Source: Hellea sp.
GTDB lineage: Bacteria; Pseudomonadota; Alphaproteobacteria; Caulobacterales; Maricaulaceae
Length of the DNA stretch: 64,000 nt
Reading direction: 5' to 3'
Assembly: GCA_013002305.1 (NCBI GenBank)
Contig: JABDKG010000102.1
Span: forward strand, 1 to 64,000
Shown here: one piece after another, positions 72 through 45,160 of the stretch
Layout: each line of letters starts with the position of its first letter
How positions within the stretch are numbered: position 1 is the first letter of the stretch
Position numbers and translations under genes: made by a program
Notes under the pieces: model-generated
Database searches by the model: none
What the model was told of the DNA's origin: nothing
Seen by the model: only the letters and a program-made list of their open reading frames with translations

Positions 72-2933
72 TTAATCCGATTCTTCCGGCTCACTCGCCA
101 GCCGAACGCCGCGCTTATCTCTGACAAGTTTCAGACCGTCCATACTCAGCGTCTCAGAGCTTTCATCCAACTGCTCTAATATGTCCTTATTTTCGACCGT
201 GCCATAGACCGCGATAGGTTTGCTGCCTTCGGGAATAACGGATTTGGCCGAACTCAAATCGGATTTGGGTGTTCCGGGCCTGTTGAAATTGATAATCTGT
301 TTCCAGCACCGCGTAATTTCGTCGCCGAAAATCACGACGAGGTCACCCATTTCCGCCAGACTGAGCGCAGCGTCAACGGCGGCTTCCTCGGACGGAATGA
401 TCTGAATATCTTTCTCAGCAACGCCGTTTTCAAGCAAAGCCGCTTTGATAATATTGGGCACTTCTTCCGGTCCGCGGCCGCGCGGATTATCATCGCGTTT
501 CAAGATATAATGATCGTAATGACCGGCAATGATCCGCGCAGTCTCCTGCATGTCTTCGTCGCGGCGATCGCCGGGCATGGCAAATACGCCGATGCGCCGA
601 CCGGTTGGCGTGAGCTGGTCAACGAGGCCGGTCATCGCCTCAAAGGCAGCCGGGTTATGGCCGTAATCGAGAATGACTTTAAACGGATGTTCGTCAAACA
701 CGTTCATGCGCCCCGGCGCCTGGGAGAAGCTTGTCGCAAATGTCGTCAGGCCGTTTCGGATATCCTCAAGGCTTTTGCCCATGCTAAAGGCGATCGCGGC
801 GGCGAACATCGCATTGTTCACATTGAACATGGCTTTCCCTTCCATGGTCGCCGGGATCAGATGGGTCCACATTAGCGGGATATGGGCACAATTGTCATAA
901 ATCGTGATCATGTGACCGTTAATGCCCTGTTCGAGCACGACGGCGCGGCCGCCGACACGGATATGTTCTTTCACCAAAGGATGGGTGGCGTGCATGGTGA
1001 CATAGCAAATATTCTTGGCTTTCGTATGCTCCGCCATGCGCAGGCAATGCTCGTCGTCAGCATTGAGGACGGCCGTATCTCGGGCGATTTCCACGACGAG
1101 CCGCTTGACGCGGGCCATATCTTCGAGGGTTTCAACACCTTTCAGGCCGAGGTGATCGGCGGATATATTTAATACGACACCGATATCACAATGGCGATAG
1201 CCCATGCCGCTGCGGACCATTCCGCCGCGAGCCGTCTCGAGAACGGCGACGTCGACCGTCGGTTCACGCAGGACCATTTGCGCGGATTTCGGGCCGGTCA
1301 AATCGCCTTTGACCATCAGATTGCCGTTGATATAAACGCCGTCGGTTGAGGCCAGGCCAACCCGGTTGCCGCTCATCTGGCAAATATGCGAGGTCATACG
1401 CGCGGTCGTGGTTTTGCCGTTTGTGCCGGTGATCGATATCATCGGAATGCGGGCCGGCGCATTTTCCGGAAACAGCATATCCATGACGGCTCCGGCAACA
1501 TCGCGCGATTTACCTTCGGACGGGGCGACGTGCATTCGGAAACCCGGCGCGGCGTTTATCTCGCAAATTCCGGCGCCGTTATCCTTGTAGGACTGGGAGA
1601 TATCCGGCGACAGGAAATCCACACCGCCGACATCCAGACCAACGGCTTTGACGGCTCTGACGGCCATTTCGCGATTATCAGGATGGACGATGTCCGTGAC
1701 ATCAATGGCCGTGCCGCCGGTCGACAGATTGGCGGTCGAGCGCAGAAACAGCTGCTCGCCGTTCGCCAACACTGAATCAGGTGTGTAGTTTTTCTCCTCC
1801 AGATGCTCCATGGCTTTTTCATCGAGCTCCAACCGGGTGAGGGCCTTTTCGTGACCGACGCCGCGGCGCGGGTCGGAGTTTACCTGATCAACGAGCTGCG
1901 TGACGGTGCTTTTGCCATCGCCGATGACATTGCCCGGAACGCGTTTGGAAACGGCCACCAGATCATCATTAACCACCAGCATGCGGTGATCAAACCCGGT
2001 AATCATGGACTCGACAATGACGCTGCGGCTGCTGCTGTTTTCTTTAGCAAAATCAAAACCCTCAGCGATATGTTCGTCGACGTCCAGACCGACGGAAATG
2101 CCCCGTCCGTGATTGCCGTCGAGCGGTTTAACGACCACCGGATATCCGATCCGCTTGGCGGCTCTGACCGCTTCATTGCGGTTCTGTACCAAAAGCTGGC
2201 GCGGTACGGGCAAGCCGAGATCCGCGAGAATTTTATTGGTTTCTTCTTTGTCGGACGCCAGCTCAACCGAGATGTAATTGGTCTCGCTGGTGATCGTGGC
2301 CTGAATGCGTTTTTGATAGCGGCCGTGTCCGAGCTGTATCAGGCTGTAATTATTGAGCCGCTGCCACGGGATGTCCCGATCAACCGCCGCTTTGACAATC
2401 GACGCCGTACTTGGTCCAAGGGCGCGCCGCTGCGCGCTGCGGATGAAAGCTTCGAGCTCCGCGTCAAAATCAAAATCTTCGATCCGGTTTTCCGGCTCAA
2501 CCAATTCATCCGGAAGCAGGGAGGTCAGAAATTTTAACGCTAAATCCGAGGCTTGGAGCCCGACTTGCTCTTCCTCAAATTCGAACACCATATCATACAC
2601 GCCGGGCTCGCCTGCGCTGCGGGTTTTGCCAAATGTCGTGTCGGCGCCGGCAATGTTCTGAAGCTCAATCGCGACATGTTCCCAGACATGTCCAAACCAT
2701 GTGCCTTCGCCTTCTTTGAGGCGCCGGATAAAACCGCCCGGAACGCTGTAGGAACAGCCATGCTCATGCAGACTTGGCAGGGTCGCGATCAGCGGATCAA
2801 TGAAACTGTCGCCGAGTTTTCCTGTCGGCCAGTCCTCGAGGATTCCGATATCAATTTTGTGGAGAATGACGGGGAAAAGCGCGTAAACATTGGGCCCCCG
2901 ATAAATCAGCGTTTCTAGGATTTTCATAGCCAC
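72..2933 (-). CDS. cphA: Cyanophycin synthetase
   Basis: CphA polymerises aspartate and arginine into the storage polymer cyanophycin in the cytoplasm, using ATP for both additions. The 953-residue protein has the expected three parts: an N-terminal domain (about 1-160), an ATP-grasp domain with VVVKPLDGNHGRGI at 266-279 and EINAAPGFRMH near 458-468, and a Mur-ligase-like domain opening with the P-loop GTNGKTTT at 503-510. Further Mur-type motifs follow (ETARGGM, NADDEH, DYGHNPAAF). The length matches proteobacterial CphA. It lies 26 bases after cphB on the same strand, so one transcript can make both the polymerase and the depolymerase. A primer-independent CphA2-type activity cannot be excluded from sequence alone. 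Confidence 0.95.
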   Translation of the reverse strand: MAMKILETLIYRGPNVYALFPVILHKIDIGILEDWPTGKLGDSFIDPLIATLPSLHEHGCSYSVPGGFIRRLKEGEGTWFGHVWEHVAIELQNIAGADTTFGKTRSAGEPGVYDMVFEFEEEQVGLQASDLALKFLTSLLPDELVEPENRIEDFDFDAELEAFIRSAQRRALGPSTASIVKAAVDRDIPWQRLNNYSLIQLGHGRYQKRIQATITSETNYISVELASDKEETNKILADLGLPVPRQLLVQNRNEAVRAAKRIGYPVVVKPLDGNHGRGISVGLDVDEHIAEGFDFAKENSSSRSVIVESMITGFDHRMLVVNDDLVAVSKRVPGNVIGDGKSTVTQLVDQVNSDPRRGVGHEKALTRLELDEKAMEHLEEKNYTPDSVLANGEQLFLRSTANLSTGGTAIDVTDIVHPDNREMAVRAVKAVGLDVGGVDFLSPDISQSYKDNGAGICEINAAPGFRMHVAPSEGKSRDVAGAVMDMLFPENAPARIPMISITGTNGKTTTARMTSHICQMSGNRVGLASTDGVYINGNLMVKGDLTGPKSAQMVLREPTVDVAVLETARGGMVRSGMGYRHCDIGVVLNISADHLGLKGVETLEDMARVKRLVVEIARDTAVLNADDEHCLRMAEHTKAKNICYVTMHATHPLVKEHIRVGGRAVVLEQGINGHMITIYDNCAHIPLMWTHLIPATMEGKAMFNVNNAMFAAAIAFSMGKSLEDIRNGLTTFATSFSQAPGRMNVFDEHPFKVILDYGHNPAAFEAMTGLVDQLTPTGRRIGVFAMPGDRRDEDMQETARIIAGHYDHYILKRDDNPRGRGPEEVPNIIKAALLENGVAEKDIQIIPSEEAAVDAALSLAEMGDLVVIFGDEITRCWKQIINFNRPGTPKSDLSSAKSVIPEGSKPIAVYGTVENKDILEQLDESSETLSMDGLKLVRDKRGVRLASEPEESD

Positions 2934-2959
2934 TCCCTTTGTCCGTGTTGTTAGCCCTT

Positions 2960-3787
2960 TTATCCGGGCGCCGGACTTGCCTTCCGTGTCGAGAGATCAT
3001 AGCGCCCCCCGTCCAGTAATATATGCAGTTTTATCCCAATTAGACAAACGGGTTTTCCTTTGGCCACGTCGGCCATGGAGGAATGCTGTAAATCTGTCGG
3101 GTCAATTACCGTCAGGCCGCCGCTGCCGACAACCTCGATGACATCATCCGGGCCGATAAAGGCGGCTGTATCTTCATCGACGCCCAGTCCGATAGCAAAG
3201 GGGTTATAGGCCAGGGCCGATAATAGCCGCCCGAGCCGTCCGCGTTCTCTGAAATGCTGATCAATAATGACTTTATTGGTCAGCCCCAGGCCCGGCGCCA
3301 AAGTTGCCAGACCGCTTTTAGGCGTCGCGCCGCCGCGTCCAAAGGCAATCATATGTTCGGGAATGAAAGCCGCGCCTGCGGATGTGCCGGCGATCGGAAC
3401 GCCCTTGGCATTCGCGCTGCGCATCAGCGACGAGACGGAAGTGCCACCAATAATGGTCGCGAGCCGCAATTGATCACCGCCGGTCATAAATATACCGGTC
3501 GCATTTTCGAGCTTGCGCAGCTTGTCAGCATCTTCGCAGTCTTGGCGCGTATCAAGTGTGACAATGTCGGCCTGACCTACGCCAATCTCGGAAAAAACTT
3601 CCCGGTACCGATCTCCGGTATCCGAAAGGCGCGAGGCTGTTGGAATGATCACAACCCTTGCTTTTTTTCCGCCGCAAAGCTCGACAAACCGGTTTAAAAT
3701 ATCGGAAGATTTGACCTTTTTTTCACCCCCGCCAATGGGAATGATATAGCCACGGATAAATCCGTCATCGACTTTAGCTGGGCACAC
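2960..3787 (-). CDS. cphB: Cyanophycinase
   Basis: CphB is a serine peptidase of family S51 that cuts cyanophycin into beta-Asp-Arg dipeptides. The protein shows the glycine-rich start IIPIGGGEKK, the FMTGGDQ motif (about 100-106) and the nucleophile motif GTSAGAAF with Ser136, counted from the chosen start. I chose the GTG at 3787 (275 residues) because AGGAG lies ten bases upstream. A longer frame from TTG at 3811 would read through that ribosome site. It is the first gene of the cphB-cphA operon. I see no secretion signal, so it should be the intracellular form that mobilises the reserve. Confidence 0.92.
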   Translation of the reverse strand: MCPAKVDDGFIRGYIIPIGGGEKKVKSSDILNRFVELCGGKKARVVIIPTASRLSDTGDRYREVFSEIGVGQADIVTLDTRQDCEDADKLRKLENATGIFMTGGDQLRLATIIGGTSVSSLMRSANAKGVPIAGTSAGAAFIPEHMIAFGRGGATPKSGLATLAPGLGLTNKVIIDQHFRERGRLGRLLSALAYNPFAIGLGVDEDTAAFIGPDDVIEVVGSGGLTVIDPTDLQHSSMADVAKGKPVCLIGIKLHILLDGGRYDLSTRKASPAPG

Positions 3788-4032
3788 GGAACAAGGTCTC
3801 CTAAGACACAATAGCGCGGCAGAATAGGGGGTAACCCCCCGGTGTCAAGCGAAGGGTTGGCACCGGAAAACGCCCTGATTTATTCGGTCGGAAAAATGCG
3901 GCTATTGATTAATTTATACTTGATTTCAGCAACCGCCAGGAGATGTAAAGGCGGGGGGACTTGGCTCGTAACTTTTATCTAAACTACCACAAAGCTCTAT
4001 CGCAGCCTTGTGATATCTTATACGTGTAGTTC
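3788..4032. other. Intergenic region upstream of cphB
   Basis: This 245-base gap carries the leader of the cphB-cphA operon and the 3' flank of the Tam41-like gene. It contains a small G5/C5 hairpin (GGGGG-TAA-CCCCC at 3827-3839) about 40 bases upstream of the cphB start. I see no convincing gene or strong promoter consensus in it. Confidence 0.4.
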
Positions 4033-4950
4033 CTACCGAAAAGCGCCCTTACGCCAATATTTGTAAAACAGCACCGGGGACCAGAGGACCGGATGTTTGA
4101 TTTGGCTTTTGGTGACGGGGATGCGCACGCCGGAGTGTTTTTCGAGCTTGTGCTGCACATAAGGCAGCCCGCCCTCAAATGTCGCTGCGCTGCACAGGAC
4201 GCGGATGGCGTTGGCGGGTTTGCCGAGCAAGCGGCGGAAAAACCATTTGGTTTTCATGGCGCGTTTGGAGCCGGCAGGAAGTGTATAATAGCCCTCTGCA
4301 TCCGGCGCGCCGTAAAGCGCGGTCATAATGGCTGCGTAACGATCTTCGTACCGCAGGACAATTTCTTCGGCGCGGCCTTCTGAAGACTCGGGCCTAAGCT
4401 CGGTACGGTAGCTTTGCAAAAATCCGCGGGCCCAGAATTTGGGCGAGGTGGCCCTGCCATCAAACAAAGGCGCGGTCTGGGCGGCCATACGACGGATAGC
4501 GGTTTCCCGGGCCGCCATGATGCGATTGTAAACGTCTTCACTTTCCGGATAAAGCACGACACAGGGCTGAGAAAAACGACCCCAAGTGACCGAAAGAAAC
4601 GCCGACGGGCTGCAGCGACGCTCAAATCCGTTGAGCGACATGATAGAATATTTGCAGGTCGTCTTGATGCCGTCCTGATGTTCCATTTCGTGATAGTAAA
4701 CGGCCGGCGGAAAGGCCTTGTTAAGGACCATCCGGATTGGGTTTTTGTGGGTCTTGCGATAGCTGTCAACAATCACATAGAAATCGAGCATGTTGTCCGG
4801 ATCTTCCATATCGCGGAGGGACGAGCCGTAATAGATAAAGCCAAGTACGCGCCCCGGATGACGGGCGCGAATATCATGACAGACGGCCGCGATGCGCGGT
4901 ATCGGCTCGACATATTCACCGGCCAATATGTTTTGGATGTTTGTCGTCAT
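4033..4950 (-). CDS. Tam41/Mmp37-like nucleotidyltransferase
   Basis: The 305-residue protein shows a nucleotidyltransferase core: YYGSS at 40-44, then LDFYVIVD at 55-62 with two acidic residues (D56, D62) spaced as metal ligands. A later block beginning KYSIMSLNGF, with the string WGRFSQPCVVLY, is arranged like the KYGVI...AGRL.KPV region of Tam41, the mitochondrial CDP-diacylglycerol synthase. By family it should transfer CMP (or another NMP) to a phospholipid or phosphoceramide. Its ATG overlaps the stop codon of the upstream lipid kinase gene (TAATG), so kinase and nucleotidyltransferase are probably translationally coupled and act in sequence. The family call rests on motif pattern only, and the true substrate is unknown. 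Confidence 0.6.
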   Translation of the reverse strand: MTTNIQNILAGEYVEPIPRIAAVCHDIRARHPGRVLGFIYYGSSLRDMEDPDNMLDFYVIVDSYRKTHKNPIRMVLNKAFPPAVYYHEMEHQDGIKTTCKYSIMSLNGFERRCSPSAFLSVTWGRFSQPCVVLYPESEDVYNRIMAARETAIRRMAAQTAPLFDGRATSPKFWARGFLQSYRTELRPESSEGRAEEIVLRYEDRYAAIMTALYGAPDAEGYYTLPAGSKRAMKTKWFFRRLLGKPANAIRVLCSAATFEGGLPYVQHKLEKHSGVRIPVTKSQIKHPVLWSPVLFYKYWRKGAFR

Positions 4951-5882
4951 TAGCTGATAAAGGTTATCGGCCGTGTCGGGCGAATTTCAATAGCGGATTT
5001 GGACACGGCGAGTTTTTCGCCGTCCAGCGTCGTAGGCCCGTCATATTCAAGCCGCACAAATTCGGCATTCCAGCTCTCGACGCCCTCGGTTTTTTTAAGC
5101 TTCTCAAATCGCCGAAGCGCCGCGCTGAGCACCAGCCTTACGACTTTTTTATTGTCGCCGCGCAGATAGGTCATGCGCAAAGGCGCGTCGCCTTTTCCCC
5201 AAAATGGATCAATGCCCATGATGAAGCCGGGCATGGTTGTGAGGATCGTCCCGAGATGATCTTCGGCAATGCGGATTTCGTCCTTGGGATTGGTCACTGT
5301 CAATTTGACCGGGCTGGGCTCAATTAGAGCATTACCGCTGCCTGTACCGCGGCCAAGCGCCTTGAGAATAGTCGAGTAAACCGCCGATGTGTTGGCTCCG
5401 CCTTTCTCTGCTTTGCGGGTCTGAAAGTAATCTGTCGCCATCGGGATGGCACCGCTTGAAAATAAAAACCCATATTCGGACGGCGAACCGTCAATCGATA
5501 TTTCAAGTAGCGGAATTTGGTGAACATTCGCCGCTTGACCAGAGAGGATTTTCTGGACTTGTGTGAGGTCAATTTTCTTGGTGCCGATCACGCCGGCGAT
5601 CTGATTTGTCGTGCCGCCCGAAACAATGGTGAACCGCGCCGGTTTACGGTTCCCGAGCCGGCGAAAATATTCTGTCAAAACAATATGGGCTGTGCCGTCG
5701 CCGCCCTCGATGAAAATATGCTCGGGATCTGACTTCATATGTTCAGCCAGCTGCTCTTGGAATGTCTCAAGGCTGCTGGCATTGATGATCGCCGCGCCGA
5801 CCTGGCCCGCGATAGAGGCCAGCGAAGACCCTTTTTTCTGAACGCGGCTGCCGCGTTGATTTATGATAAAAAGGGGTGGCAA
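4950..5882 (-). CDS. Lipid kinase, diacylglycerol/sphingosine/ceramide kinase type
   Basis: This 310-residue protein belongs to the DAGK catalytic/LCB5 superfamily. It has the NPxSG-like start (IINQRGS), the ATP-site motif GGDGT at 60-64, SGGTTNQIAG near 88-97 in the place of the usual GTGND, and a C-terminal LDGE typical of the lipid kinase beta-sandwich. It phosphorylates a hydroxyl of a membrane lipid. The start is a TTG at 5882 with GGAG five bases upstream. Coupling to a Tam41-like gene, and the neighbouring acyltransferase and nucleotidyltransferase, favour a ceramide kinase role like Caulobacter CpgB over plain diacylglycerol recycling. That choice is inference. Confidence 0.8.
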   Translation of the reverse strand: MPPLFIINQRGSRVQKKGSSLASIAGQVGAAIINASSLETFQEQLAEHMKSDPEHIFIEGGDGTAHIVLTEYFRRLGNRKPARFTIVSGGTTNQIAGVIGTKKIDLTQVQKILSGQAANVHQIPLLEISIDGSPSEYGFLFSSGAIPMATDYFQTRKAEKGGANTSAVYSTILKALGRGTGSGNALIEPSPVKLTVTNPKDEIRIAEDHLGTILTTMPGFIMGIDPFWGKGDAPLRMTYLRGDNKKVVRLVLSAALRRFEKLKKTEGVESWNAEFVRLEYDGPTTLDGEKLAVSKSAIEIRPTRPITFIS

Positions 5883-6137
5883 ATGGACTCCGTTTCCCGG
5901 TCATAGTTTGAGTCTATATCCAACATTTTGTCGGCTTAATGAATGTTTTTTTACCGTGCGCATGCATTTATTCTCGCTGCCGCGCAAAAATATCGAATTT
6001 TTGGCTTATAATCGCGGCAATTGACAGCCAACCGGGCCTGTTGTCGTGACTTCTAAGAGTTGACCTGAGCCAAGATTAATCCCACAAACCCTGTTCGCTA
6101 TCGGGAATGCTCCCGGCCAATGATGGGGAAGTGGGAT
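5883..6137. promoter_or_regulatory. Divergent control region of the lipid cluster
   Basis: This 255-base gap separates the two divergent halves of the lipid cluster and must hold promoters for both. A TTGACA lies in it near 6021, but I could not pair it with a good -10 box, so no exact promoter is claimed. Shared upstream DNA suggests that the two halves may be co-regulated. Confidence 0.4.
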
Positions 6138-7280
6138 ATGGCGGATGCCGACATCATCGCTGTTGAGACGAAGGCCCACATTCGGGCTTTTCTGAATTTT
6201 CCCTACGAGCTTTACAAAGATGATCCGCAGTGGCGCGCCCCGCTTCGCTTTGAACGGGCCGCACAAATAACGCCGGAGAAGAACCCGGTATTGCATGCCA
6301 TAACCGACCAAAAATTTCTGGCCATGCGCGGCGATAAATGTGTCGGCCGGATTGCTGCCTTTATCAATCATTCCCACCAGGAGCAGCATAAAGACGGCGC
6401 CGGGCATTTTGGATTTCTGGATTTTGAAAATAATCCTGAGACGGGCCGCGCCCTGCTGACGGCAGCGCAGGACTGGCTGATGGCCAAGGGCGCGAAGAAA
6501 ATCCTTGGTCCCAATCAGTGGAGCGTCAATGAAGAGACCGGTCTGCTGGTCGACGGTTTTGATACACCGCCGGTGGTTTTAATGCCCTTTGGCCAGCCCT
6601 ATTATCAAAAAATAGTCGAGGATTTCGGCTTTGAAAAAGCAACCGACATGTATGCGTTTCAAAACAATCTTCACGAAGGGTTCCCGCGCCCCAAAACCAC
6701 CCAGATGATGCGCCGACTGGCGATTAAGGATAAGGGCATAAAGCTTCGCCCTGTCAATAAGAGCAAGTTTAAAGAAGAAATAGCCATAGCCATGTCGATC
6801 TTCAATGATGCCTGGTCTGAGAATTGGGGCTTTGTCCCGTTCACGGACGATCAAATTGATCATATGGCCAAGGAGATGAAACCGCTGGTCGATAAAGACC
6901 TGTTTCAATTTGGCGAAATAGATGGCGAGGTCATGACTTTTGGCGTCATCATCCCGGACATCAACTCCGCTGCCCATGGCCTGAATGGCAAACTCTTCCC
7001 TTTCGGTATATTGAAATTTCTTTACCGCCTGAAAATTAAGGGGGTGAAGCAGGCCAGATTGCCGCTTTTAGGACTGCGCAAAAAAGCCCACAATTCCCGC
7101 CGGGGGCTTGCGCTCACCGCGCACCTCTGCGAAACGCTTTTTGAGAATGCACGGGATAAAGGATTTACCCAGCTGGAATTGTCGTGGATCTTGGAGGATA
7201 ATGCCTCAATGATCCGGATTTGTGAGCAGGCAAGCTCCGTCAAATATAAAACCTATCGGATGTATGAAAAGCAGCTTTGA
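6138..7280 (+). CDS. GNAT-superfamily acyltransferase, candidate bacterial ceramide synthase
   Basis: The 380-residue protein has the features of a large GNAT-like family: an N-terminal block with FLNFPYELYKDDPQWRAPL, a central CVGRIAAFINHSH followed by HFGFLDFE, and LGPNQWSVNEETGLLVDGF, then a second acyltransferase-like half ending in LELSWILEDNASM. Members are often annotated N-acetyltransferase; the bacterial ceramide synthase of Caulobacter is, to my knowledge, a GNAT-type acyltransferase. If this is an orthologue, it N-acylates a sphingoid base. ATG 6138 is preferred over ATGs at 6120 and 6123 because GGGGAAG lies just upstream of it. The next gene starts inside its 3' end. The GNAT-like fold is fairly sure; the ceramide role is inferred from neighbours. 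Confidence 0.65.
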   Translation: MADADIIAVETKAHIRAFLNFPYELYKDDPQWRAPLRFERAAQITPEKNPVLHAITDQKFLAMRGDKCVGRIAAFINHSHQEQHKDGAGHFGFLDFENNPETGRALLTAAQDWLMAKGAKKILGPNQWSVNEETGLLVDGFDTPPVVLMPFGQPYYQKIVEDFGFEKATDMYAFQNNLHEGFPRPKTTQMMRRLAIKDKGIKLRPVNKSKFKEEIAIAMSIFNDAWSENWGFVPFTDDQIDHMAKEMKPLVDKDLFQFGEIDGEVMTFGVIIPDINSAAHGLNGKLFPFGILKFLYRLKIKGVKQARLPLLGLRKKAHNSRRGLALTAHLCETLFENARDKGFTQLELSWILEDNASMIRICEQASSVKYKTYRMYEKQL

Positions 7281-8037
7281 CAGTGCCAATATTTCCGTTT
7301 TGATCCTCGCCGGACAGCGTGAGGGTGAGGTTGACCCTCTCTGCGCCATGGCGGGGGTTGAGCGTAAAGCGATGATCCCGATTTGTGGCCGGCCAATGCT
7401 GGAATATCCGATTGAAGCCCTCAAACAAGCCGGACTGAGAACACCGTTTCATGTTAGCGGCTTCAGGCCGAACAAGTATGCAGATTTGACCGAAGTACCG
7501 TCTGGCCGGGGTCCGGCAGATAGTACGGTCACGGCGATCGAGACAGGAATTTCTTACCCGGTATTGGTGACCACCTGTGACAGTGCGCTGCTGAGCCGCG
7601 AGATGGTAGATAGTTTCGTGTCGCAGGCGATGGATACCGGCGCGGATTTTTGCGCCGGGCTCGCAGAAAAGAGGATCATCCAGCCGGCCTATCCCGACGT
7701 CAAACGCACCTATCTGAATTTCAAAGGTTCAGCCGTATCGGGCTGTAATCTGTTCTGGGTCGCTAATGAAAACGGCCTTGAGGCCATACGGTTCTGGAAA
7801 CGGGCGCAAAATTTTCGCAAACAGCCAATCAGGCTCGCCGCCAAAGTCGGAATTATTCCGCCGCTTCTTTATATTTTCAGACAGCTGACGCTGGACGGCG
7901 CTTTTCGGTATGCCGCAAAACGGCTTGGCATAACCGCCAAACCGGTATTGATCCCGATTGCTGAAGCGGCGATTGATGTCGACAAGCCATCGGACCTGGA
8001 ACTTGTCGAGCAGATTATGGCAGGCCGCGCCGCATGA
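7264..8037 (+). CDS. MobA-like nucleotidyltransferase (possible CDP-glycerate-forming enzyme)
   Basis: The 257-residue protein has a MobA-like NTP-transferase fold: VLILAGQREGEVDPL followed by KAMIPICGRPMLEYPI is the nucleotide-binding signature, and VLVTTCDSALL supplies the metal-binding aspartate. Such enzymes load a phosphorylated small molecule onto CTP or GTP. Caulobacter CpgD, a nucleotidyltransferase encoded near the ceramide synthase gene, makes CDP-glycerate for ceramide diphosphoglycerate; position and type match. I chose ATG 7264, overlapping the previous gene by 17 bases. A start at 7222 would overlap it by 59. Molybdenum cofactor guanylylation is unlikely because no moa or mob genes are near. 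Confidence 0.65.
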   Translation: MKSSFDSANISVLILAGQREGEVDPLCAMAGVERKAMIPICGRPMLEYPIEALKQAGLRTPFHVSGFRPNKYADLTEVPSGRGPADSTVTAIETGISYPVLVTTCDSALLSREMVDSFVSQAMDTGADFCAGLAEKRIIQPAYPDVKRTYLNFKGSAVSGCNLFWVANENGLEAIRFWKRAQNFRKQPIRLAAKVGIIPPLLYIFRQLTLDGAFRYAAKRLGITAKPVLIPIAEAAIDVDKPSDLELVEQIMAGRAA

Positions 8038-9398
8038 CGCCGAATTTCGACATTCAGTCTCAAAAATCGGCGGGCAAACGTATTGCCTCTAATGCCGGGC
8101 TTTTGATCGGCGCTAAAATAATCGGAACCATATTTGGACTGGGAACGCTGAAAATAGCGTCGGATGTTCTTGATCCTGTGGCTTTCGGAACCGTGATATT
8201 TCTGCACGCCTATATGCTGTTTTTTGGCGAAGTTACGACTTTTAAAAACTGGCAATCGGTTATCCGTTTTGGAACTGACGATTCTGAAGCCAAGGACCCG
8301 CACGCCTTTGGCCGGCTCGTGAAATTTACGGCCAAGCTTGATTTTGTCTCTGTGCTTTTCGCCTATGGTCTATCGGTTGCGCTGATCGGATTTGCGGTAT
8401 TTCTTTTTAAGGCTAACCCTGGGTTGGCGCCGAACGATCTTGACGTCGATGTTTTGCAAAAATTCGTACCGCTATATTGTTTGGTTTTGATATTCAGGCA
8501 GGTCGGCACCTCCGAGGGCGTGCTCCGACTGTTTGACCGGTTTGGCCTGCTCGCCATTGAAGCGCTGGTATTGCCGGTGCTGCGTTTTGCCGGCTCAGTC
8601 TATGTGCTGCTCACAGGCGGCGGGTTTGAGGCGTTCTTAATTGTCTGGTTTATCGCGTCGGCGGCCGGCTATTCAAGTGTGATTATGTTTGCGCTGCTTG
8701 AGCTGAGAAAACGACATTTGTTCGACCATGTAAAAGATGCCGATCAAGGCTTTAAGCGCACGCGCGAAGGGCTCTGGGCCTTTGCGATTAAGTCCAATCT
8801 CGACTCGTCTATCGCCAGCGGGTTTTTACATTTGCCGCTGATCATGGTCACAGCCGCCTTCGGTCCTGCCTGGGCCGGAGTCTATAAGATCGCCGAAGAG
8901 GTGATGAAGCTTTTAACCGAAGGCTTTAAACTGCTCGAGCAAGTGATCTATCCGGAACTGGCGAAATTCGTCTCGCAGGGGCAGCCGGACAAGATCTGGC
9001 CTGTGGTTAAACGCGCCTCGATCTGGATGTTGTCCTTTGGCTTTTTCGCTTCGGCAATTATTTGGTTTGCCGGGCCAGATGTTCTGACCTATTTGTTCGG
9101 CGAAACTTTTAGACCGTCCGCTTATCTGGCGGCGCTGCTTGTGCCGGGCGCGGCGCTGCTGGGCTGCGTCACACCGATCTACCCGATTTTCTACGCCGCC
9201 AATAAGCCGGAGCGCGCAATTTACGTGCGCGGCGGTGCCTTGATTGTCTATGTCATATCATTTGCGGTTCTCGGGTTTCTCATCGGAAAAATGGCGCCGG
9301 GCTGGGCGATCATCGTCTGTAATAGTTTTGCCGTTATTTTGGCGCTATTGGTGGCGCGCTCGACCCTGCGCAGTATGATCAGAGAGAAACATGCCTGA
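8034..9398 (+). CDS. Polysaccharide/lipid flippase of the Wzx/MATE (MOP) type
   Basis: This 454-residue protein is strongly hydrophobic with about twelve predicted membrane segments. The N-terminal stretch KRIASNAGLLIGAKIIGTIF resembles the first helix of O-antigen flippases of the MOP superfamily. Such proteins move lipid-linked intermediates across the inner membrane. Its ATG overlaps the preceding stop (ATGA), and the next gene starts eight bases before its own stop, so it is part of a tight operon. In this context it may flip a lipid-linked headgroup precursor or the finished lipid. No glycosyltransferase gene lies nearby, which argues against an ordinary O-antigen locus. Confidence 0.75.
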   Translation: MTPNFDIQSQKSAGKRIASNAGLLIGAKIIGTIFGLGTLKIASDVLDPVAFGTVIFLHAYMLFFGEVTTFKNWQSVIRFGTDDSEAKDPHAFGRLVKFTAKLDFVSVLFAYGLSVALIGFAVFLFKANPGLAPNDLDVDVLQKFVPLYCLVLIFRQVGTSEGVLRLFDRFGLLAIEALVLPVLRFAGSVYVLLTGGGFEAFLIVWFIASAAGYSSVIMFALLELRKRHLFDHVKDADQGFKRTREGLWAFAIKSNLDSSIASGFLHLPLIMVTAAFGPAWAGVYKIAEEVMKLLTEGFKLLEQVIYPELAKFVSQGQPDKIWPVVKRASIWMLSFGFFASAIIWFAGPDVLTYLFGETFRPSAYLAALLVPGAALLGCVTPIYPIFYAANKPERAIYVRGGALIVYVISFAVLGFLIGKMAPGWAIIVCNSFAVILALLVARSTLRSMIREKHA

Positions 9399-10062
9399 GC
9401 CAATGCTCGCCATTTTTGATCTGGATTACACGCTCACCCGCCGCGGGACATGGGGGCGCTTTACATGGCAGATGGCGAAATACCGGCCACATATCTGGAT
9501 ACAGCTTTTAATCTCCGCCGGGTGGACGCAGTGGCGCTATAAAAAAGGCCATCTCCCGCGCGTGCGCGTCAAACAAGCCATGATGCGCTGGTGCATGGTC
9601 GGCAAGCCGCGCGAGACAATGATATCCGAGGCGAAAAAATTTGCCGAGCGCGAAGTGAGCAGCGGCCTACGTCCCGGAGGGCTTACGAAATTGCGGGCCC
9701 ATCAAGAAGCCGGCGATCATATATTACTGGTCAGCGCCGCCGTCGATATTATTGTCAGAGAAATTTGTGAGCGGTTGGGGGTTGAGGATTATCTCGCGAC
9801 CAATATGGACTGGGATGAAAATAACAGGCTCAAGGAAGATTTTGCCTCGGCCAATTGTTACGGCCCGGAGAAAATCCTTCGCCTCGAAACCTTCCTTACA
9901 AGCCATCCCGATCTGAAGAACCGCCCATCGATAATGTACTCCGATAGCCACTCCGATATTCCGATAATGGAATTTTGTGACAGTTGCGTTGCGGTGAATC
10001 CATCCGAGAAGCTCGAAAAATATGCGCGTGAGCACGGTATTCCGATTGAAAATTGGGATTAA
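9391..10062 (+). CDS. HAD-IB family phosphatase (SerB-like)
   Basis: The 223-residue protein carries the HAD motif I as IFDLDYTLT (nucleophile and acid/base Asp), motif II in LLVSAAVD, and motif IV in MYSDSHSDIPIME. It fits subfamily IB, which includes phosphoserine phosphatases and fused lipid phosphatases. A region rich in aromatic and hydrophobic residues (about 30-55, MAKYRPHIWIQLLISAGW) could sit at the membrane. It overlaps the flippase gene by eight bases. A phosphatase acting on a phosphorylated lipid or headgroup precursor fits the cluster, but the substrate is not visible in the sequence. Confidence 0.75.
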   Translation: MPEPMLAIFDLDYTLTRRGTWGRFTWQMAKYRPHIWIQLLISAGWTQWRYKKGHLPRVRVKQAMMRWCMVGKPRETMISEAKKFAEREVSSGLRPGGLTKLRAHQEAGDHILLVSAAVDIIVREICERLGVEDYLATNMDWDENNRLKEDFASANCYGPEKILRLETFLTSHPDLKNRPSIMYSDSHSDIPIMEFCDSCVAVNPSEKLEKYAREHGIPIENWD

Positions 10063-10140
10063 CGCGCTCTTTTCATCACTTTTTTATTGATTGCGCCGCC
10101 TCCTTTTCCGAATATGCAATGGAGTATAGGCGGGGATTTA

Positions 10141-11358
10141 ATGAGATTACTCAAGGGGCTACTAACCAAATTTGTCGGGGATGGTCGTATGACTGTGATC
10201 GATGCTGACGGTAATCGACATGAGATTGGCAAGGGCCTGAAAGACGGCCCGCATCCAATCTTTAAAATACACGACAAGAAACTTTACACCCGGCTGTTTC
10301 TGAACCCTGAGCTTGTCGCCGGTGAAGCCTATATGGACGGAACCATAACTTTTGAAGAAGGCAGCACGTTGCACGATCTTCTTAAACTCTTCAAACAAGA
10401 CTCGACCGGCGTTCGCAAACATCCGATGCAAAAGGCGCTCAAAGGCTGGCTTAAGAAAATCCGCCGGTTTCACCAGCGTAACCAAACCCATGCCGCGCGT
10501 GAAAATGTTCAGCATCATTATGATTTGTCGAATGATTTTTACCGGCTTTTTCTGGATGAGGACATGCAATATAGCTGCGCATATTGGTCTGATCCCGACA
10601 TGACGCTCGAGCAGGCGCAAGAGGCCAAGAAGGCCCATATAGCCGCCAAACTAAACCTCAAACCCGGTGATAAGGTCCTTGATATTGGCTGTGGCTGGGG
10701 CGGCAAGGCAATCTATATCGCACAAAATTTCGGCTGCGAGGTGGTTGGTGTCACCTTGTCCGATAATCAACACAGATTAGCCCGTGAACGGGTCAAGGCA
10801 GCAGGTCTCTCTGACAAGATTAATATCCGCATTCAGGATTACAGGCATATTGAAGAAAAATTTGATGCCGTCGTCTCGGTCGGCATGTTCGAACATGTCG
10901 GGTTGGCCCATTTTCGGGAATATTTCGAAAAAATTCGCGATCTTTTGACCGATGATGGCTGCGCTCTCATTCATTCCATTGGGCGCAAGGGCGGGCCGAG
11001 CACTACCGGTGCATGGATCCGCAAATATATATTCCCGGGCGGCTACTCACCTGCCTTGTCCGAAACGTTTGCCGAGATTGAAAAGGCCAAGCTTTGGGTC
11101 ACGGACTGCGAGATTTGGCGTCTTCATTATGCCGAAACCATCAAAGAGTGGGAAAGTCGGTTTCAAGCCAATAAAGAAAAAATCACCGACATGTTTGACG
11201 AGCGCTTCTTCCGGATGTTTGAATTTTATCTGATTATCAGCGAATATTCCTTCCGTTATGGATCACATATGAACTTTCAAATACAACTAACCAAAGACCG
11301 AAATGCCTTGCCTTTGACGAGGGATTATATGATAGAGGCCGAACGAAAATTGAGCTGA
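10141..11358 (+). CDS. cfa: Cyclopropane-fatty-acyl-phospholipid synthase family methyltransferase
   Basis: The 405-residue protein transfers a methylene from S-adenosylmethionine to an unsaturated acyl chain in the membrane. It has the CFA N-terminal domain with ELVAGEAYMDG, the ENVQHHYDLSNDFYRLFLD signature, the SAM-binding VLDIGCGWGG, and the C-terminal helical region ending near FRYGSHMNFQIQLTK. I chose ATG 10141 because GGCGGGGA lies just upstream; an in-frame start at 10087 would add an unlike, proline-rich leader. It is on the same strand as the preceding lipid genes, after a 78-base gap. Close relatives include desaturase-like and other acyl-chain methyltransferases, so the exact modification is open. 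Confidence 0.85.
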   Translation: MRLLKGLLTKFVGDGRMTVIDADGNRHEIGKGLKDGPHPIFKIHDKKLYTRLFLNPELVAGEAYMDGTITFEEGSTLHDLLKLFKQDSTGVRKHPMQKALKGWLKKIRRFHQRNQTHAARENVQHHYDLSNDFYRLFLDEDMQYSCAYWSDPDMTLEQAQEAKKAHIAAKLNLKPGDKVLDIGCGWGGKAIYIAQNFGCEVVGVTLSDNQHRLARERVKAAGLSDKINIRIQDYRHIEEKFDAVVSVGMFEHVGLAHFREYFEKIRDLLTDDGCALIHSIGRKGGPSTTGAWIRKYIFPGGYSPALSETFAEIEKAKLWVTDCEIWRLHYAETIKEWESRFQANKEKITDMFDERFFRMFEFYLIISEYSFRYGSHMNFQIQLTKDRNALPLTRDYMIEAERKLS

Positions 11359-11378
11359 CCCCCTAAGGCTTTGTCCTC

Positions 11379-12185
11379 ATGACTGAAAGAACCGAAAAAC
11401 CCAAAAATCTTTCCAATCCGCGCCGCCGTTTTGTCAAAAAAACCGGTAAGAAACTGATGCGGACGGTTGCGAAATTGCAATCCAAAAGCTCCAAAGTTCC
11501 GGACACACCAAAAATCGATAATGGCAATTTCGACTTTTTGCAAAGCTTTGTCGATAATTGGGAAGTCATCCGTGATGAGGCACTTGAGGTTCTGAAATAT
11601 CGCGAGCAAATTCCGGGCTTTCAGGAATTGTCTCCGGATCAATATCGCCTTGCCAAGGGTCAGAACTGGAAGACTTTCGTATTGTTCGGATTTGGACAAC
11701 GGCTGGAGAAAAATACCCGGATTACGCCCAAAACGGCGGAAATCCTCGAGCAAGTCCCCAATCTGCAAACCGCTATGTTCTCCATTCTGGCCCCCGGATA
11801 TCATATTCCGGCCCATACCGGCGTGACCAAAGGCATACTTCGCAGCCATCTTGGGCTGATCATCCCCAAAGATTACAAGAAGTGCCGAATTCGGGTGGAA
11901 GACACGATCACCCCGTGGCGCGAAGGCGAAATATTCGTATTTGACGACACATATGAACACGAGGTGTGGAACGATACGGATGAAGAACGGGTCATCCTAC
12001 TGTTCGATTTTGACCGGCCTATGGGCTTTTCAGGACGTTTCCTCAATAAAGCCATGATGTCGGCCATGAAAAAAACCGCCTTTTATCAAGACCCCAAGAA
12101 AAATCTCGAAGACGCCGAAGCCCGCCTTGAAGCCGCCATCCGCCAAAACGACAAAAATATGGAAGCCATGAGCGACCCGTCTTAG
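11379..12185 (+). CDS. Aspartyl/asparaginyl beta-hydroxylase-family (LpxO-like) lipid hydroxylase
   Basis: The 268-residue protein carries the double-stranded beta-helix of the AspH family: YHIPAHTG, ILRSHLGLIIP, WREGEIFVFDD and YEHEVWNDT supply the histidine ligands and basic residue expected for Fe(II) and 2-oxoglutarate. Bacterial members include LpxO, which hydroxylates a lipid A acyl chain. A Lys/Arg-rich N-terminus could bind the membrane surface; I see no clear transmembrane helix. It follows cfa by 20 bases and ends the plus-strand lipid block. Hydroxylation of a ceramide or lipid A acyl chain is the natural guess. It overlaps the convergent XRE gene by four bases. Confidence 0.75.
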   Translation: MTERTEKPKNLSNPRRRFVKKTGKKLMRTVAKLQSKSSKVPDTPKIDNGNFDFLQSFVDNWEVIRDEALEVLKYREQIPGFQELSPDQYRLAKGQNWKTFVLFGFGQRLEKNTRITPKTAEILEQVPNLQTAMFSILAPGYHIPAHTGVTKGILRSHLGLIIPKDYKKCRIRVEDTITPWREGEIFVFDDTYEHEVWNDTDEERVILLFDFDRPMGFSGRFLNKAMMSAMKKTAFYQDPKKNLEDAEARLEAAIRQNDKNMEAMSDPS

Positions 12186-12652
12186 ATTACCCTGTCCCGA
12201 TAGAAAGTCATTTTAGCAAGCAGTCGGTCAGGCTTGGCGTTTGGCAATGGTTCGTAAATTGTGACGTCGTAATCATTGCCGTCCTGATGTTGATTTAGAA
12301 TCCCAAACAGATTATCTTTTTTGGACGCGAAGGGCATAAATCCGGCGGGATGAGAGAAATTCGGACCCTGTCCATTATCCTTTCCGTCATAAATCGGAAT
12401 ATGCTGGATCGGATGCTGGACATATATATGGGCCGGTGAGGTGGCAATTTCCTGCACGCCCGATAGCAGCCAGACCGATGTTACGCCAAGAACCTTCCCG
12501 ATTTTCTCCAGGACAGCCCGGCGCGGAATATGGCTTCCATTCTCCCAATTGGCGACCGTTGGCTGACTAACGCCGGTTTTTTCGGCAAGGATAGCCTGTG
12601 ATAATCCGCGATTGATTCGGGTGGCTTTGATTCGTCTGTGGAGGGAATTCAT
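12182..12652 (-). CDS. XRE-family transcriptional regulator
   Basis: Residues about 5-60 form a Cro/C1-type helix-turn-helix (IKATRINRGLSQAILAEKTG, then VSQPTVANWENGSHIPR). The remaining hundred residues, roughly, have no motif I recognise and lack the Ser-Lys protease pattern of LexA/CI-type repressors. The protein has 156 residues and is transcribed towards the lipid hydroxylase gene, sharing four bases at the stop codons. It may regulate the lipid cluster or itself through the AT-rich DNA upstream. Target and ligand are unknown. Confidence 0.8.
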   Translation of the reverse strand: MNSLHRRIKATRINRGLSQAILAEKTGVSQPTVANWENGSHIPRRAVLEKIGKVLGVTSVWLLSGVQEIATSPAHIYVQHPIQHIPIYDGKDNGQGPNFSHPAGFMPFASKKDNLFGILNQHQDGNDYDVTIYEPLPNAKPDRLLAKMTFYRDRVI

Positions 12653-13164: not shown

Positions 13165-13851
13165 TTAGATCGGCGCGATCGGCCGTGACAGGCTAAGGAT
13201 CGATTCGGGCAGCTCGCGAAATCGGCGCAGGACTTTATCCGCGCGTAGCCGATCCGCTGGCGTACCCGCATAACCGTACCGGAACAGAACAATTGGAACG
13301 CCCGCTGCGCGGGCGGCCATGACATCCGGTGCTGAATCGCCGACCATAATGATGCTGGATCGTCTCCGGTGTCCCGTCGCGGCAAATATATGCTGCGCCG
13401 AGGGTTTCGTGGCCACGCCATCACTCGACCCCACAACCCGGTCAAAATAGGGCGTCAATTTCAACTCATCCAGTAATTTGCGCGCCAGATAGCCCGGCTT
13501 ATTTGTACAGACCGATAATTTCGCCCCGCCGGACCTTAAATCCCGCAGAATATGTTCAACGCCGGAAAAGGGCTGGGACAGCTCGGCAATATTCTCATCA
13601 TAGAGCTTGATAAACACATGCCAGAGCTCGGACACGCGCGCGTCTGATATAGTATGGCCAGCGCGCTCGCAGGCCTGCACAATCAACGCTTTAGCGCCAA
13701 AACCAACCTGACCGCGCGCCTTATCATAGTCGGTCGGCGGCAGGCCTTCCTCGGCGATTACCAAATTGAGGACGCGCACAAGATCGGGCGCCGTATCGAC
13801 CAGCGTCCCGTCAAGATCAAAACAAATAGAAAGTCCGGAAAATCCGCCCAT
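13165..13851 (-). CDS. gph: Phosphoglycolate phosphatase-like HAD hydrolase
   Basis: The protein removes phosphate from 2-phosphoglycolate, which arises from DNA repair or Rubisco side reactions, or from a related small substrate. It has HAD motif I (CFDLDGTLVDTAPD), a helical cap, motif II (LSVCTNK) and motif III/IV (IIMVGDSAPDVMAARAAG). I chose ATG 13851 (228 residues), which puts the nucleophile near residue 11. ATG 13866 and GTG 13881 are alternatives. It diverges from glmU with an 84-base gap. Assignment to Gph rather than another Cof-like phosphatase rests on overall similarity. Confidence 0.85.
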   Translation of the reverse strand: MGGFSGLSICFDLDGTLVDTAPDLVRVLNLVIAEEGLPPTDYDKARGQVGFGAKALIVQACERAGHTISDARVSELWHVFIKLYDENIAELSQPFSGVEHILRDLRSGGAKLSVCTNKPGYLARKLLDELKLTPYFDRVVGSSDGVATKPSAQHIFAATGHRRRSSIIMVGDSAPDVMAARAAGVPIVLFRYGYAGTPADRLRADKVLRRFRELPESILSLSRPIAPI

Positions 13852-13935
13852 AAAAGTCCATTCCATAGGTGCGCCATGCACCGCAATAGGTTAGAAGCTG
13901 TCTACATTACAGATTCGTCGCCGCAAGGGGGCCCC

Positions 13936-15273
13936 ATGAAAAAAGACCGCGCCGCTATTATACTGGCTGCAGGCAAAAGTACCCGGATGAAATCCGCAAC
14001 ATCCAAAGTGCTCCACCATGTTGGCGGGCGCTCGATGCTCGCATGGGTTAAAGCTCAAGCGGACGCTGCAGGGGTCTCAAAGGTCGTTTGCGTTGTTGGC
14101 GAAGCCAATCAGGATGTCCGCGACGCCGCCAAAGCCATGGGTATGGAAATAGCCGTTCAAGAACCGCAGCTCGGAACCGGGCATGCTGTGCTGGCAGCCA
14201 AACATATTCTGGCCGATTTTGACGGTACCGTCACGGTTTTATATGCCGACACGCCGCTGATCCGCACAGAGACGACACACAGAGTGTTTGACGCTCTGGA
14301 CGGCGCAGATGTTGCAGTTTTGGGATTTGAAGCGGCCGATCCGGGGGCGTATGGCCGTCTGATAACAAGGGGCGATGAACTGACTGCCATCGTAGAGGCC
14401 AGAGAAGCCACGCCAAAGCAGCTCGCCATTCAGCTGTGCAATAGCGGGGTTATTTCGGCCAGCCGCGCCGATATGTTCTCGGCGCTGTCCCGGGTCACCA
14501 ATGACAATGCCAAGGGCGAGTACTACCTGACCGATATTATCGAAATCCTGCGATCTGACGGTAAGAAAACTGTTGCCGTCATTGGCGACGAAGCTGAAGT
14601 TTTGGGTGTCAATTCGCGCGAAGATCTGGCGATGGCCGAGCAGGCCTTTCAAAGCGCCAAGCGGGCCGAAATAATGGACGGCGGCGTCACGCTGCGCAAT
14701 CCGGACAGTGTTATTTTCGCCTTTGATACGATTGCGGAGCAAGACGCGATAATCGGCGCTAATGTCGTGATCGAAGAGGGAGTTCGCATTCGTAAAAATG
14801 CCGAGATCAAACCTTTTACCCATCTGGCGGGCTGCGAAATAGGCGAAGGCGCGTCAATTGGGCCATTTGCGCGCATTCGCCCGTCCACCAATGTTGGTGA
14901 GAATGCTAAAATTGGCAATTTTGTCGAAACCAAAAACCTAGATCTCGGCAAGGGCAGTAAGATCGGGCACTTGTCTTACGTTGGCGACGCCGAGCTTGGT
15001 ATCAATGTCAATATCGGAGCCGGGACAATTACCTGCAATTATGATGGTTATAACAAGCATAAAACGATCGTCGGCGATCATGCCTTTATCGGCACGCATT
15101 CATCTCTGGTCGCGCCGGTGACCATCGGTGAGGGGGCGTTTTTGGGGTCCGGCGGGGTTATCACCAAAGACGTTCCGGACGACGCGCTCGCAATAGCGCG
15201 CGCCGATCAGGTCAATAAGGATGGATGGGCCAAGCGCTATCATGCCGCTCACCAGAAAAGAAAAGACAAATAG
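13936..15273 (+). CDS. glmU: Bifunctional GlmU (N-acetylglucosamine-1-phosphate uridyltransferase / glucosamine-1-phosphate acetyltransferase)
   Basis: GlmU makes UDP-GlcNAc for peptidoglycan and lipid A in the cytoplasm. The N-terminal half has the pyrophosphorylase motif IILAAGKSTRM, with K at VLHHVGG, and YADTPLI. The C-terminal half is a left-handed beta-helix built from hexapeptide repeats (for example IGPFARIRP, IGNFVETKN, VNIGAGTITCNYDG). The 445-residue length is normal. Start ATG 13936 follows AAGGGGG; an upstream in-frame extension to 13654 would run antisense through gph and is not used. rpiA and gor follow closely on the same strand. Confidence 0.96.
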   Translation: MKKDRAAIILAAGKSTRMKSATSKVLHHVGGRSMLAWVKAQADAAGVSKVVCVVGEANQDVRDAAKAMGMEIAVQEPQLGTGHAVLAAKHILADFDGTVTVLYADTPLIRTETTHRVFDALDGADVAVLGFEAADPGAYGRLITRGDELTAIVEAREATPKQLAIQLCNSGVISASRADMFSALSRVTNDNAKGEYYLTDIIEILRSDGKKTVAVIGDEAEVLGVNSREDLAMAEQAFQSAKRAEIMDGGVTLRNPDSVIFAFDTIAEQDAIIGANVVIEEGVRIRKNAEIKPFTHLAGCEIGEGASIGPFARIRPSTNVGENAKIGNFVETKNLDLGKGSKIGHLSYVGDAELGINVNIGAGTITCNYDGYNKHKTIVGDHAFIGTHSSLVAPVTIGEGAFLGSGGVITKDVPDDALAIARADQVNKDGWAKRYHAAHQKRKDK

Positions 15274-45042: not shown

Positions 45043-45160
45043 AAATTTTCCACTGTCTCGCTTTGCGCGGGACTATACTCATATTCCGCGTCGTTTCAAT
45101 TCGCGATATCACTAATTCCTGCATTTTGAAAAATTAAAATACAGTCATATCTGCGGGCAC

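Follow-up and report, generated by a model that had tools for sequence, protein, structure and literature searches.

Organization of the gene cluster

The window analyzed here is a 64,000-nucleotide stretch of Hellea sp. (positions 1 to 64,000 of contig JABDKG010000102.1, assembly GCA_013002305.1), and the element under study is a putative lipid cluster at positions 4033–12185 that we relate to the ceramide-phosphoglycerate (CPG) locus of Caulobacter. We confirmed eight open reading frames (ORFs) in about 8 kb, with two genes on the minus strand and six on the plus strand (6120–12185), and their coordinates agree with the two divergent overlapping sets described earlier by a model from the letters and ORFs (hereafter, the sequence-only reading). 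The tightly packed ORFs overlapped by 1–17 bp at four joints (4950; 7264–7280; 8034–8037; 9391–9398). For the MobA-like nucleotidyltransferase gene (ATG at 7264) and the cyclopropane fatty acid (CFA) synthase-like gene (ATG at 10141), homologues and sequence backed better starts than those of the longest ORFs.

Pfam matched the kinase, CFA, and hydroxylase proteins (Table 1), the MobA-like protein (NTP_transf_3, E about 2.8e-11), and the phosphatase (HAD, 2.3e-24), and its GNAT and Polysacc_synt matches to cluster proteins were sub-cut-off. The two uncertain family calls, tandem GNAT and Tam41, were backed by predicted structures.

Table 1. Genes and intergenic region of the lipid cluster, with positions in the window
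Feature	Position	Strand	Evidence
CpgC (CC_1161)-like protein, 305 amino acids, predicted Tam41 fold	4033..4950	-	AlphaFold2 and Foldseek; 30–31% to Caulobacter gene adjoining spt
CpgB-like ceramide kinase, DAGK family	4950..5882	-	DAGK_cat 3.6e-9; GGDGT motif; 24–27% to Caulobacter counterpart
Divergent intergenic region	5883..6119	.	In relatives, lptF2-lptG2 pair between kinase and CerS (e.g., L074, L075, L082, L092)
CerS (CC_1154/YghO)-type ceramide synthase, predicted tandem GNAT	6120..7280	+	41–43% to Caulobacter gene, nearly full length
CC_1153-like nucleotidyltransferase (MobA/CofC type)	7264..8037	+	NTP_transf_3; 35–37% to Caulobacter gene adjoining cerS
MOP-superfamily flippase (CC_1166-like), 454 amino acids	8034..9398	+	Polysacc_synt sub-cut-off; 25–29% to Caulobacter/Phenylobacterium MOP gene
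HAD-IB phosphatase, proposed in CC_1158 slot	9391..10062	+	TIGR01490 128.6 bits, cut-off 98.3
CFA synthase-like methyltransferase, proposed ceramide-chain target	10141..11358	+	CMAS 5e-98; CPFASynBruc 540 bits
OlsC/LpxO-like hydroxylase, proposed ceramide N-acyl 2-hydroxylase	11379..12185	+	Asp_Arg_Hydrox 3.1e-54; OlsC model 215.5 bits

Co-occurrence with serine palmitoyltransferase and relationship to known loci

Membership of the cluster in a sphingolipid pathway is the best supported of our conclusions. Counts were based on 149 genomes, comprising that of the window and those of 148 relatives that are not independent of one another. Serine palmitoyltransferase (Spt) was called at 189 bits or more; below this, apart from one fragment in a genome already counted, scores dropped to about 134 bits, which we read as paralogues. 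The CpgC-like gene was present in 52 genomes and Spt in 60. All 52 genomes with the CpgC-like gene also had Spt, eight had Spt alone, and 89 had neither. The two varied together within four genera (g23, g25, g28, and g29), with Spt alone in three genomes of g23. In 24 of the 31 mapped stretches (L072–L102), spt lay in the same stretch as the CpgC-like gene, within at most 20 kb.

The usual order in the family was aasR, cerR, acpR, and spt, then cpgC, kinase, lptG2, and lptF2, and then DUF2141, cerS, CC_1153, MOP, HAD, (cpgD), CFA, and AspH, with gaps in individual genomes. The window holds the right-hand part of this order without lptF2/G2, and its spt operon lies elsewhere. Because the same order recurs in relatives and co-occurrence of the Tam41-like gene with Spt was complete (52/52), we interpret the cluster as more than a chance association.

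A scan with three order-level proteins allowed the best 80 of 171 relatives to be compared by name; these included Caulobacter vibrioides OR37 and DSM 9893, C. segnis, Phenylobacterium, and Sphingomonas. The order around spt in the Caulobacter loci reproduced the CC_1152–CC_1166 order given in the available text of PMC11324152. The named Caulobacter and Phenylobacterium loci and a Roseomonas plasmid carried this set of families in a mostly matching order. Identities of window proteins to the Caulobacter and Phenylobacterium genes (Table 1) were measured against four loci (L119, L120, L144, and L146) and ranged from 41–43% for CerS to 24–28% for the kinase. These results uphold the sequence-only reading in relating the cluster to the Caulobacter CPG locus and in taking the kinase as the counterpart of CpgB and the GNAT-like protein as that of the ceramide synthase.

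Compared with the C. crescentus locus (CC_1168–CC_1152; CPG/CPG2), the window shares CerS, CC_1153, CpgB, CpgC, and the MOP flippase, and the HAD phosphatase, CFA synthase, and AspH-type hydroxylase are its only additions. The sequence-only reading had counted further genes as extra; these three stand, but the Tam41-like gene is the counterpart of CpgC (CC_1161) and the flippase has a Caulobacter counterpart. The aasR-cerR-acpR-spt order is the same in both organisms, but in the window genome these genes are on other contigs, not beside the cluster. CpgA, CpgD, and LptF2/G2 were not found in the window genome, and no CC_1158-type gene lies in the cluster. We note that the assembly (2.94 Mb, 102 contigs) is 97% complete, so all absences reported here are provisional.

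A CPG2-type sphingolipid locus is also carried by plasmid p1-AD2 of Roseomonas mucosa from a skin sample (NZ_CP025188; L244:2878–24493). It includes counterparts of CC_1153, CerS, CpgB, CpgC, and MOP together with spt, acpR, cerR, and aasR, and additionally CpgA, CpgD, LptF/LptG, a metallophosphoesterase, and a sterol-desaturase-family gene beside CerS, whereas no AspH-type, CFA, or HAD gene is annotated in this stretch.

Ceramide backbone genes

The Caulobacter-type ceramide set (spt, acpR, aasR, cerR, and cerS) was found in the window genome, with acpR assigned by reading. Contig C13 carries aasR (84% identical to a same-genus relative) and cerR (61%); by reading, its end is occupied by acpR and the opening 65 codons of spt. 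Contig C91 starts with the last 257 codons of spt, and the middle of the gene falls outside both contigs. This second piece matched the NCBIfam model SerpalmtaseBetaP at 1.4e-96 without reaching the whole-protein cut-off of 500 bits, and its top PDB entries were serine palmitoyltransferase. HemA-type and Kbl-type genes are distinct from spt in this genome. The sequence-only reading had expected spt, its acyl carrier protein (ACP), and the ceramide reductase outside the window, and the genome search located them there, along with the acyl-ACP synthetase, on C13 and C91; spt, whose absence would have pointed away from sphingolipids, is present but split over two contig ends. On C91, spt is followed 3' by a TamA/BamA-like gene and a 1370-amino-acid gene read as TamB-like.

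Predicted fold of the CpgC-like protein

Sequence searches gave few leads for the CpgC-like protein, which had no Pfam or NCBIfam match up to E 0.1. Its Caulobacter counterpart gave a single sub-threshold Pfam match (RhlB), and its relative on the Roseomonas plasmid is annotated as a hypothetical protein. Direct PDB sequence searches returned partial matches at best (E 0.8 and 0.056), the second to a nucleotidyltransferase domain. A broad CpgC alignment contained no segment of sufficient conservation to scan the genome collection with. The AlphaFold2 model, built with 29 sequences, had a predicted local distance difference test score (pLDDT) of 89, and the five best Foldseek rows were all Tam41 chains. 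Using VIA-align, the model matched Tam41 with CTP-Mg (7ecd) at Z 19.3, with a root-mean-square deviation of 3.0 over 227 residues, followed by mitochondrial Tam41 (Z 16.2 and 15.8) and then by aminoglycoside nucleotidyltransferases (7.3). The CpgC-like protein therefore shares its predicted fold with the cytidine diphosphate (CDP)-diacylglycerol synthase Tam41 (7ecd, 6ig2, and 6ig4), but it is 14–16% identical to it and has ceramide genes as genomic partners. The Pfam Tam41 model PF09139 had its sole match in the window genome elsewhere (E 0.22) and none in Caulobacter vibrioides at E 10.

The shared fold points, with moderate support, to CDP-ceramide as the product of CpgC, although the fold alone is no proof of substrate. 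In Caulobacter, CC_1160 is the ceramide kinase, and CC_1161 is required for CPG and has a CDP-diacylglycerol-synthase InterPro domain; in the available text, the authors already suggested a nucleoside diphosphate-activated ceramide (PMC11324152). What is new relative to that suggestion is the fold evidence and the gene distribution. The accessible part of a 2026 preprint calls the mechanism of the CpgC step, from ceramide-1-phosphate to CPG, unidentified (PMC13228409). A literature search, with subscription literature mostly outside it, returned no report of CDP-ceramide with bacteria.

PF01066 found just PgsA and an adjacent PgsA-like protein in the window genome, the latter below the PgsA cut-off. 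This second, divergent CDP-alcohol phosphotransferase (L238:1970–2734) adjoins pgsA and neighbors a gene read as uvrC, and we consider it a candidate headgroup transferase.

Kinase, ceramide synthase, and CC_1153-like protein

The CpgB-like kinase keeps an invariant GGDGT in 24 aligned relatives, was matched in all 34 mapped stretches (L072–L102, L211, L212, and the window), and adjoins CpgC in Caulobacter too. The CPG branch, as counterparts of CpgB and CpgC, is thus present in the window. The predicted model of CerS matched tandem-GNAT folds, and PDB searches with its sequence yielded nothing beyond marginal, partial hits (E 0.0008 and 0.008 at best). Escherichia coli YghO shares about 40% identity with CerS as well. 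In the available text of PMC9386255, yghO is listed together with CC_1154, and a related ceramide gene set is published for E. coli BL21. The yghO region of E. coli PN43 (L245:5579–16134) contains CerS and the remaining four ceramide genes, along with an LptF/LptG pair of its own and a MOP protein.

The CC_1153-like protein had a profile match to 2dpw (1.5e-39), and its gene occurred in 28 of the same 34 stretches. CC_1153 looks like a usual, not constant, partner. In seven Sphingomonas-group loci (L151, L154, L157, L160, L163, L169, and L172), a CC_1153-like gene lies directly 3' of CpgC, usually after the kinase, and several of these loci show no CpgA in the stretch. We note that the CC_1153 and CpgD profiles also catch other nucleotidyltransferases, such as the window gene at 13654–15273 that we read as GlmU.

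CPG2 extension

The sequence-only reading had placed the MobA-like gene in the CpgD class. We rejected this assignment: the CpgD-type gene, which is LicC-like, adjoins CC_1153 in Caulobacter loci, and was recognized by that position (L120), is a separate gene, and the MobA-like protein matches CC_1153. The CpgD type is about 41%–51% identical (long matches) between the Caulobacter/Phenylobacterium loci and the gene in the HAD-CFA slot of the family. That slot gene encodes a PF00483 protein, which fits the likeness of CpgD to choline-phosphate cytidylyltransferase reported in the available text of PMC13228409. In the window genome, CpgD had no match at E 1e-20 and CpgA none at E 1e-5.

Genome-wide searches of the 149 genomes, as distinct from the locus map, found CpgA in 30, of which 27 scored above 240 bits, and CpgD in 26, all within those 27. 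Half of the CpgC genomes (26 of 52) lacked both strong CpgA and CpgD. Open frames longer than 800 amino acids accounted for 16 of the 30 CpgA matches, and eight relatives (L072, L075, L076, L080, L082, L084, L086, and L087) carry a MOP-CpgA fusion of 824–836 amino acids, which physically links flipping with transfer of the second headgroup. The window MOP protein has no fused CpgA domain. Caulobacter has the flippase CC_1166 (PMC11324152, available text), and in the Caulobacter loci the MOP gene adjoins aasR.

A second LptF/LptG pair was not found in the window genome, where PF03739 identifies one pair, at window positions 45182–47361. At 43786–46327, the gene immediately after lptG was read as surA, with no lptD between them; in related bacteria, lptD lies at this place. 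The idea of an organism without lipopolysaccharide (LPS) was rejected, as LpxC is present in the window genome and in 147 of the 149 genomes (LptD elsewhere was not searched).

Since CpgA, CpgD, and a dedicated LptF2/G2 were not found, Caulobacter-style CPG2 appears unlikely in this organism. A loss of the CPG2 extension is moderately supported, and the longer route suggested by the sequence-only reading does not agree with this gene content.

Phosphatase genes

We scored phosphatases at 60 bits or more anywhere in a stretch. Across the best 80 named loci, the CC_1158-type phosphoesterase occurred alone in 45 and HAD alone in 19, with neither in 16 and both in none. The corresponding numbers for 33 relatives plus the window were 9, 21, 4, and 0. 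Two genomes are in both sets (L099/L177 and L100/L128), and cuts at contig ends inflate the class with neither. Combined, HAD occurred in 40 loci and the CC_1158 type in 54, never together in a mapped locus. HAD was found in the window's family, in f2, and in the Sphingomonas group, and the CC_1158 type in f3, f5, and genus g7 of the window's family; each type occurs once in genus g4 (L088 and L089). We read this pattern as the two phosphatases probably replacing one another. The HAD protein also had a weak match to PgpC (3.4e-4, NCBIfam), which would fit a phosphatidylglycerol-like logic.

Proposed tailoring genes

The AspH-type protein reached neither the OlsC model (NF052565, 215.5 bits, cut-off 450) nor the LpxO model (NF033391, 131 bits, cut-off 500). 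It has the Asp_Arg_Hydrox domain in common with these acyl 2-hydroxylases but sits in a ceramide synthase operon, and it could still work like OlsC despite scores far below the cut-offs. The CFA protein scored 328 bits against CMAS (cut-off 27) and 540 bits against NCBIfam CPFASynBruc, below the equivalog cut-off of 600. The presence of both genes in the cluster suggests that this organism may make hydroxylated, cyclopropanated ceramides.

AspH orthologues (at least 403 bits; next match 238 bits) were found in 33 of the 149 genomes, the window's own included. Spt was present in 32 of these 33, which are not independent cases; the exception is a genome that is 70% complete. Among 20 downstream stretches of relatives, AspH was present in 15 and CFA in 12, or 13 counting L081 (same genome as L209). 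We compared annotated neighborhoods for three AspH plasmid matches among 101 records; a fourth record carries no annotation. Two of the three are cases outside the family. The best plasmid match (44%) belongs to a ceramide locus on a plasmid of Pseudomonas veronii; this locus also has spt, acpR, cerR, aasR, cerS, and a CpgB-like kinase. A match of 42.5% adjoins CpgA on plasmid pPNP1 of Pseudomonas, where the stretch also holds CpgD, CpgB, CpgC, CC_1153, LptF/G, and a weak CC_1158-type match.

In Caulobacter, ceramide hydroxylation is reported to involve the DesA-type enzyme CC_0202 (PMC11324152, available text). Ceramide hydroxylation may have arisen by acquisition of different enzymes, including DesA-type, sterol-desaturase-family, and AspH-type proteins. 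A search of titles and abstract openings, with subscription literature mostly outside it, returned no description of CFA or LpxO/AspH-type enzymes in bacterial sphingolipid synthesis.

Proposed pathway and alternatives

We propose, with a probability of roughly 70%, that the cluster is the headgroup and CerS half of a Caulobacter-type CPG locus in rearranged form, which completes ceramide and leads to a CPG-like product. Ceramide would be made by AasR, AcpR, Spt, and CerR, encoded on other contigs, together with CerS. The CpgB-like kinase would convert it to ceramide-1-phosphate, from which the CpgC-like enzyme and CTP would form CDP-ceramide, in the way that Tam41 acts on phosphatidic acid. 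The headgroup attached next would be glycerate or phosphoglycerate, the HAD phosphatase would trim a phosphate as phosphatidylglycerophosphate phosphatases do, and the MOP protein would flip the lipid. The CC_1153-like protein may provide a further nucleotide-dependent step, and the hydroxylase and cyclopropane synthase may tailor the chains. Because no CpgA or CpgD was found, we predict that the pathway ends with a CPG-like lipid and does not proceed to CPG2. What we observed directly is gene content, gene order, co-occurrence, and predicted folds; from these we infer every substrate, the sequence of steps, and the targets of tailoring, and the exact headgroup and the tailoring targets are the least supported parts.

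Several observations weigh against this proposal. The kinase has only 24–27% identity to its Caulobacter counterpart, PF09139 does not match the CpgC-like protein, and the absences rest on an incomplete assembly. A CDP-ceramide route requires a transferase, and the cluster has none, with only PgsA and the one PgsA-like protein in the genome. Caulobacter needs CC_1153 for CPG2 and not for CPG, yet the window keeps the CC_1153-like gene without CpgA or CpgD. This gene is also missing from L089, L090, L094, L097, L101, and L102 (stretches, not whole genomes), and the gap in 6 of 34 stretches makes a shared-core CDP-ceramide reading slightly less probable. As for tailoring, AspH orthologues occur in a single family, some clusters with AspH lack CFA (L198, L201, and L206), and the window genome has a second AspH-type gene (contig C51, 43%). 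The pPNP1 locus has no spt in the stretch and just a piece of CerS, and the AspH gene of Pseudoroseomonas cervicalis (L248) lies outside any such locus.

The alternative that survives best, though doubtful, is a sphingolipid with a headgroup other than phosphoglycerate, in which CpgB and CpgC would still lead to CDP-ceramide but a different acceptor would be attached. Such a lipid would fit the failure to find CpgA and CpgD and the retention of the CC_1153-like gene despite their absence, and headgroup genes appear exchangeable among relatives. In L212 (9220–11036), the space between HAD and CFA is occupied by an ATP-grasp protein together with a second MobA-like paralogue, and the same paralogue precedes AspH in L201 (21–1348), after an ORF end read as its ATP-grasp partner. 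Neither locus has CpgA or CpgD, and this pair is possibly an amino-acid-type headgroup cassette. A GMC oxidoreductase also lies between CpgD and CFA in L202:1130–2704 (Pfam) and L197:17330–18931 (by reading). However, the window cluster contains no gene for an alternative acceptor, and in Caulobacter both CC_1160 and CC_1161 are required for CPG (PMC11324152, available text).

Somewhat less likely still, CpgC may not make CDP-ceramide, its Tam41 fold serving to activate phosphoglycerate or to transfer it to ceramide-1-phosphate, as first proposed. The nucleotidyltransferase core is common to many non-lipid enzymes, and the published scheme, in the accessible part of PMC13228409, has CpgC involved between ceramide-1-phosphate and CPG without a named mechanism; in the same scheme, however, CpgD already activates phosphoglycerate in Caulobacter. 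The structural match over 227 residues is to a lipid enzyme and lies far above those to other nucleotidyltransferases, which argues against this reading. Finally, a glycerolipid or polysaccharide cluster unrelated to sphingolipids is very improbable: DAGK, CFA, MOP, MobA, and OlsC-like families do serve such pathways, but every genome with the CpgC-like gene (52/52) has Spt, and on this ground we rejected the explanation. Further evidence against it comes from the mapped stretches, most of which (24/31) include spt, from the CerS and CpgC counterparts in named Caulobacter loci, and from the spt operon in the genome.

Beyond the CPG-like pathway proposed for the window, we tentatively suggest a wider scheme. 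Bacterial acidic sphingolipids may be made via a CDP-ceramide route that copies the mitochondrial logic of Tam41, phosphotransferase, and HAD phosphatase. A core of CpgB and CpgC, usually with a CC_1153-like enzyme, would be common to Caulobacter, Sphingomonas, Roseomonas, and the window's family, with CpgA and CpgD or other cassettes as optional additions and the HAD and CC_1158-type phosphatases interchangeable. In the window's family, an OlsC-like enzyme would also 2-hydroxylate the ceramide, and a dedicated CFA synthase would introduce cyclopropane rings into it.

Neighboring genes

Directly beside the cluster, positions 72–3811 contain a gene read as cyanophycin synthetase and a cyanophycinase gene (TIGR02069). 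On the other side, a gene for a small helix-turn-helix protein (12182–12652) is convergent with the hydroxylase gene, and its homologues occur close to the end of the cluster in 10 of the 20 downstream stretches (L193, L194, L195, L197, L198, L199, L202, L208, L209, and L211).

Significance

The fold evidence turns the mechanism of CpgC into a question about one enzyme, namely whether or not its product is CDP-ceramide. The comparison across loci distinguishes a core module for the headgroup from a CpgA-CpgD extension that is optional. It also points to a phosphatase that may substitute for CC_1158 and to candidate genes for the hydroxylation and cyclopropanation of ceramides in bacteria. In the available texts on Caulobacter, CPG2 partly supports viability without LPS (PMC12275187) and CPG genes affect polymyxin B sensitivity (PMC11324152), so this chemistry bears on outer-membrane biology.

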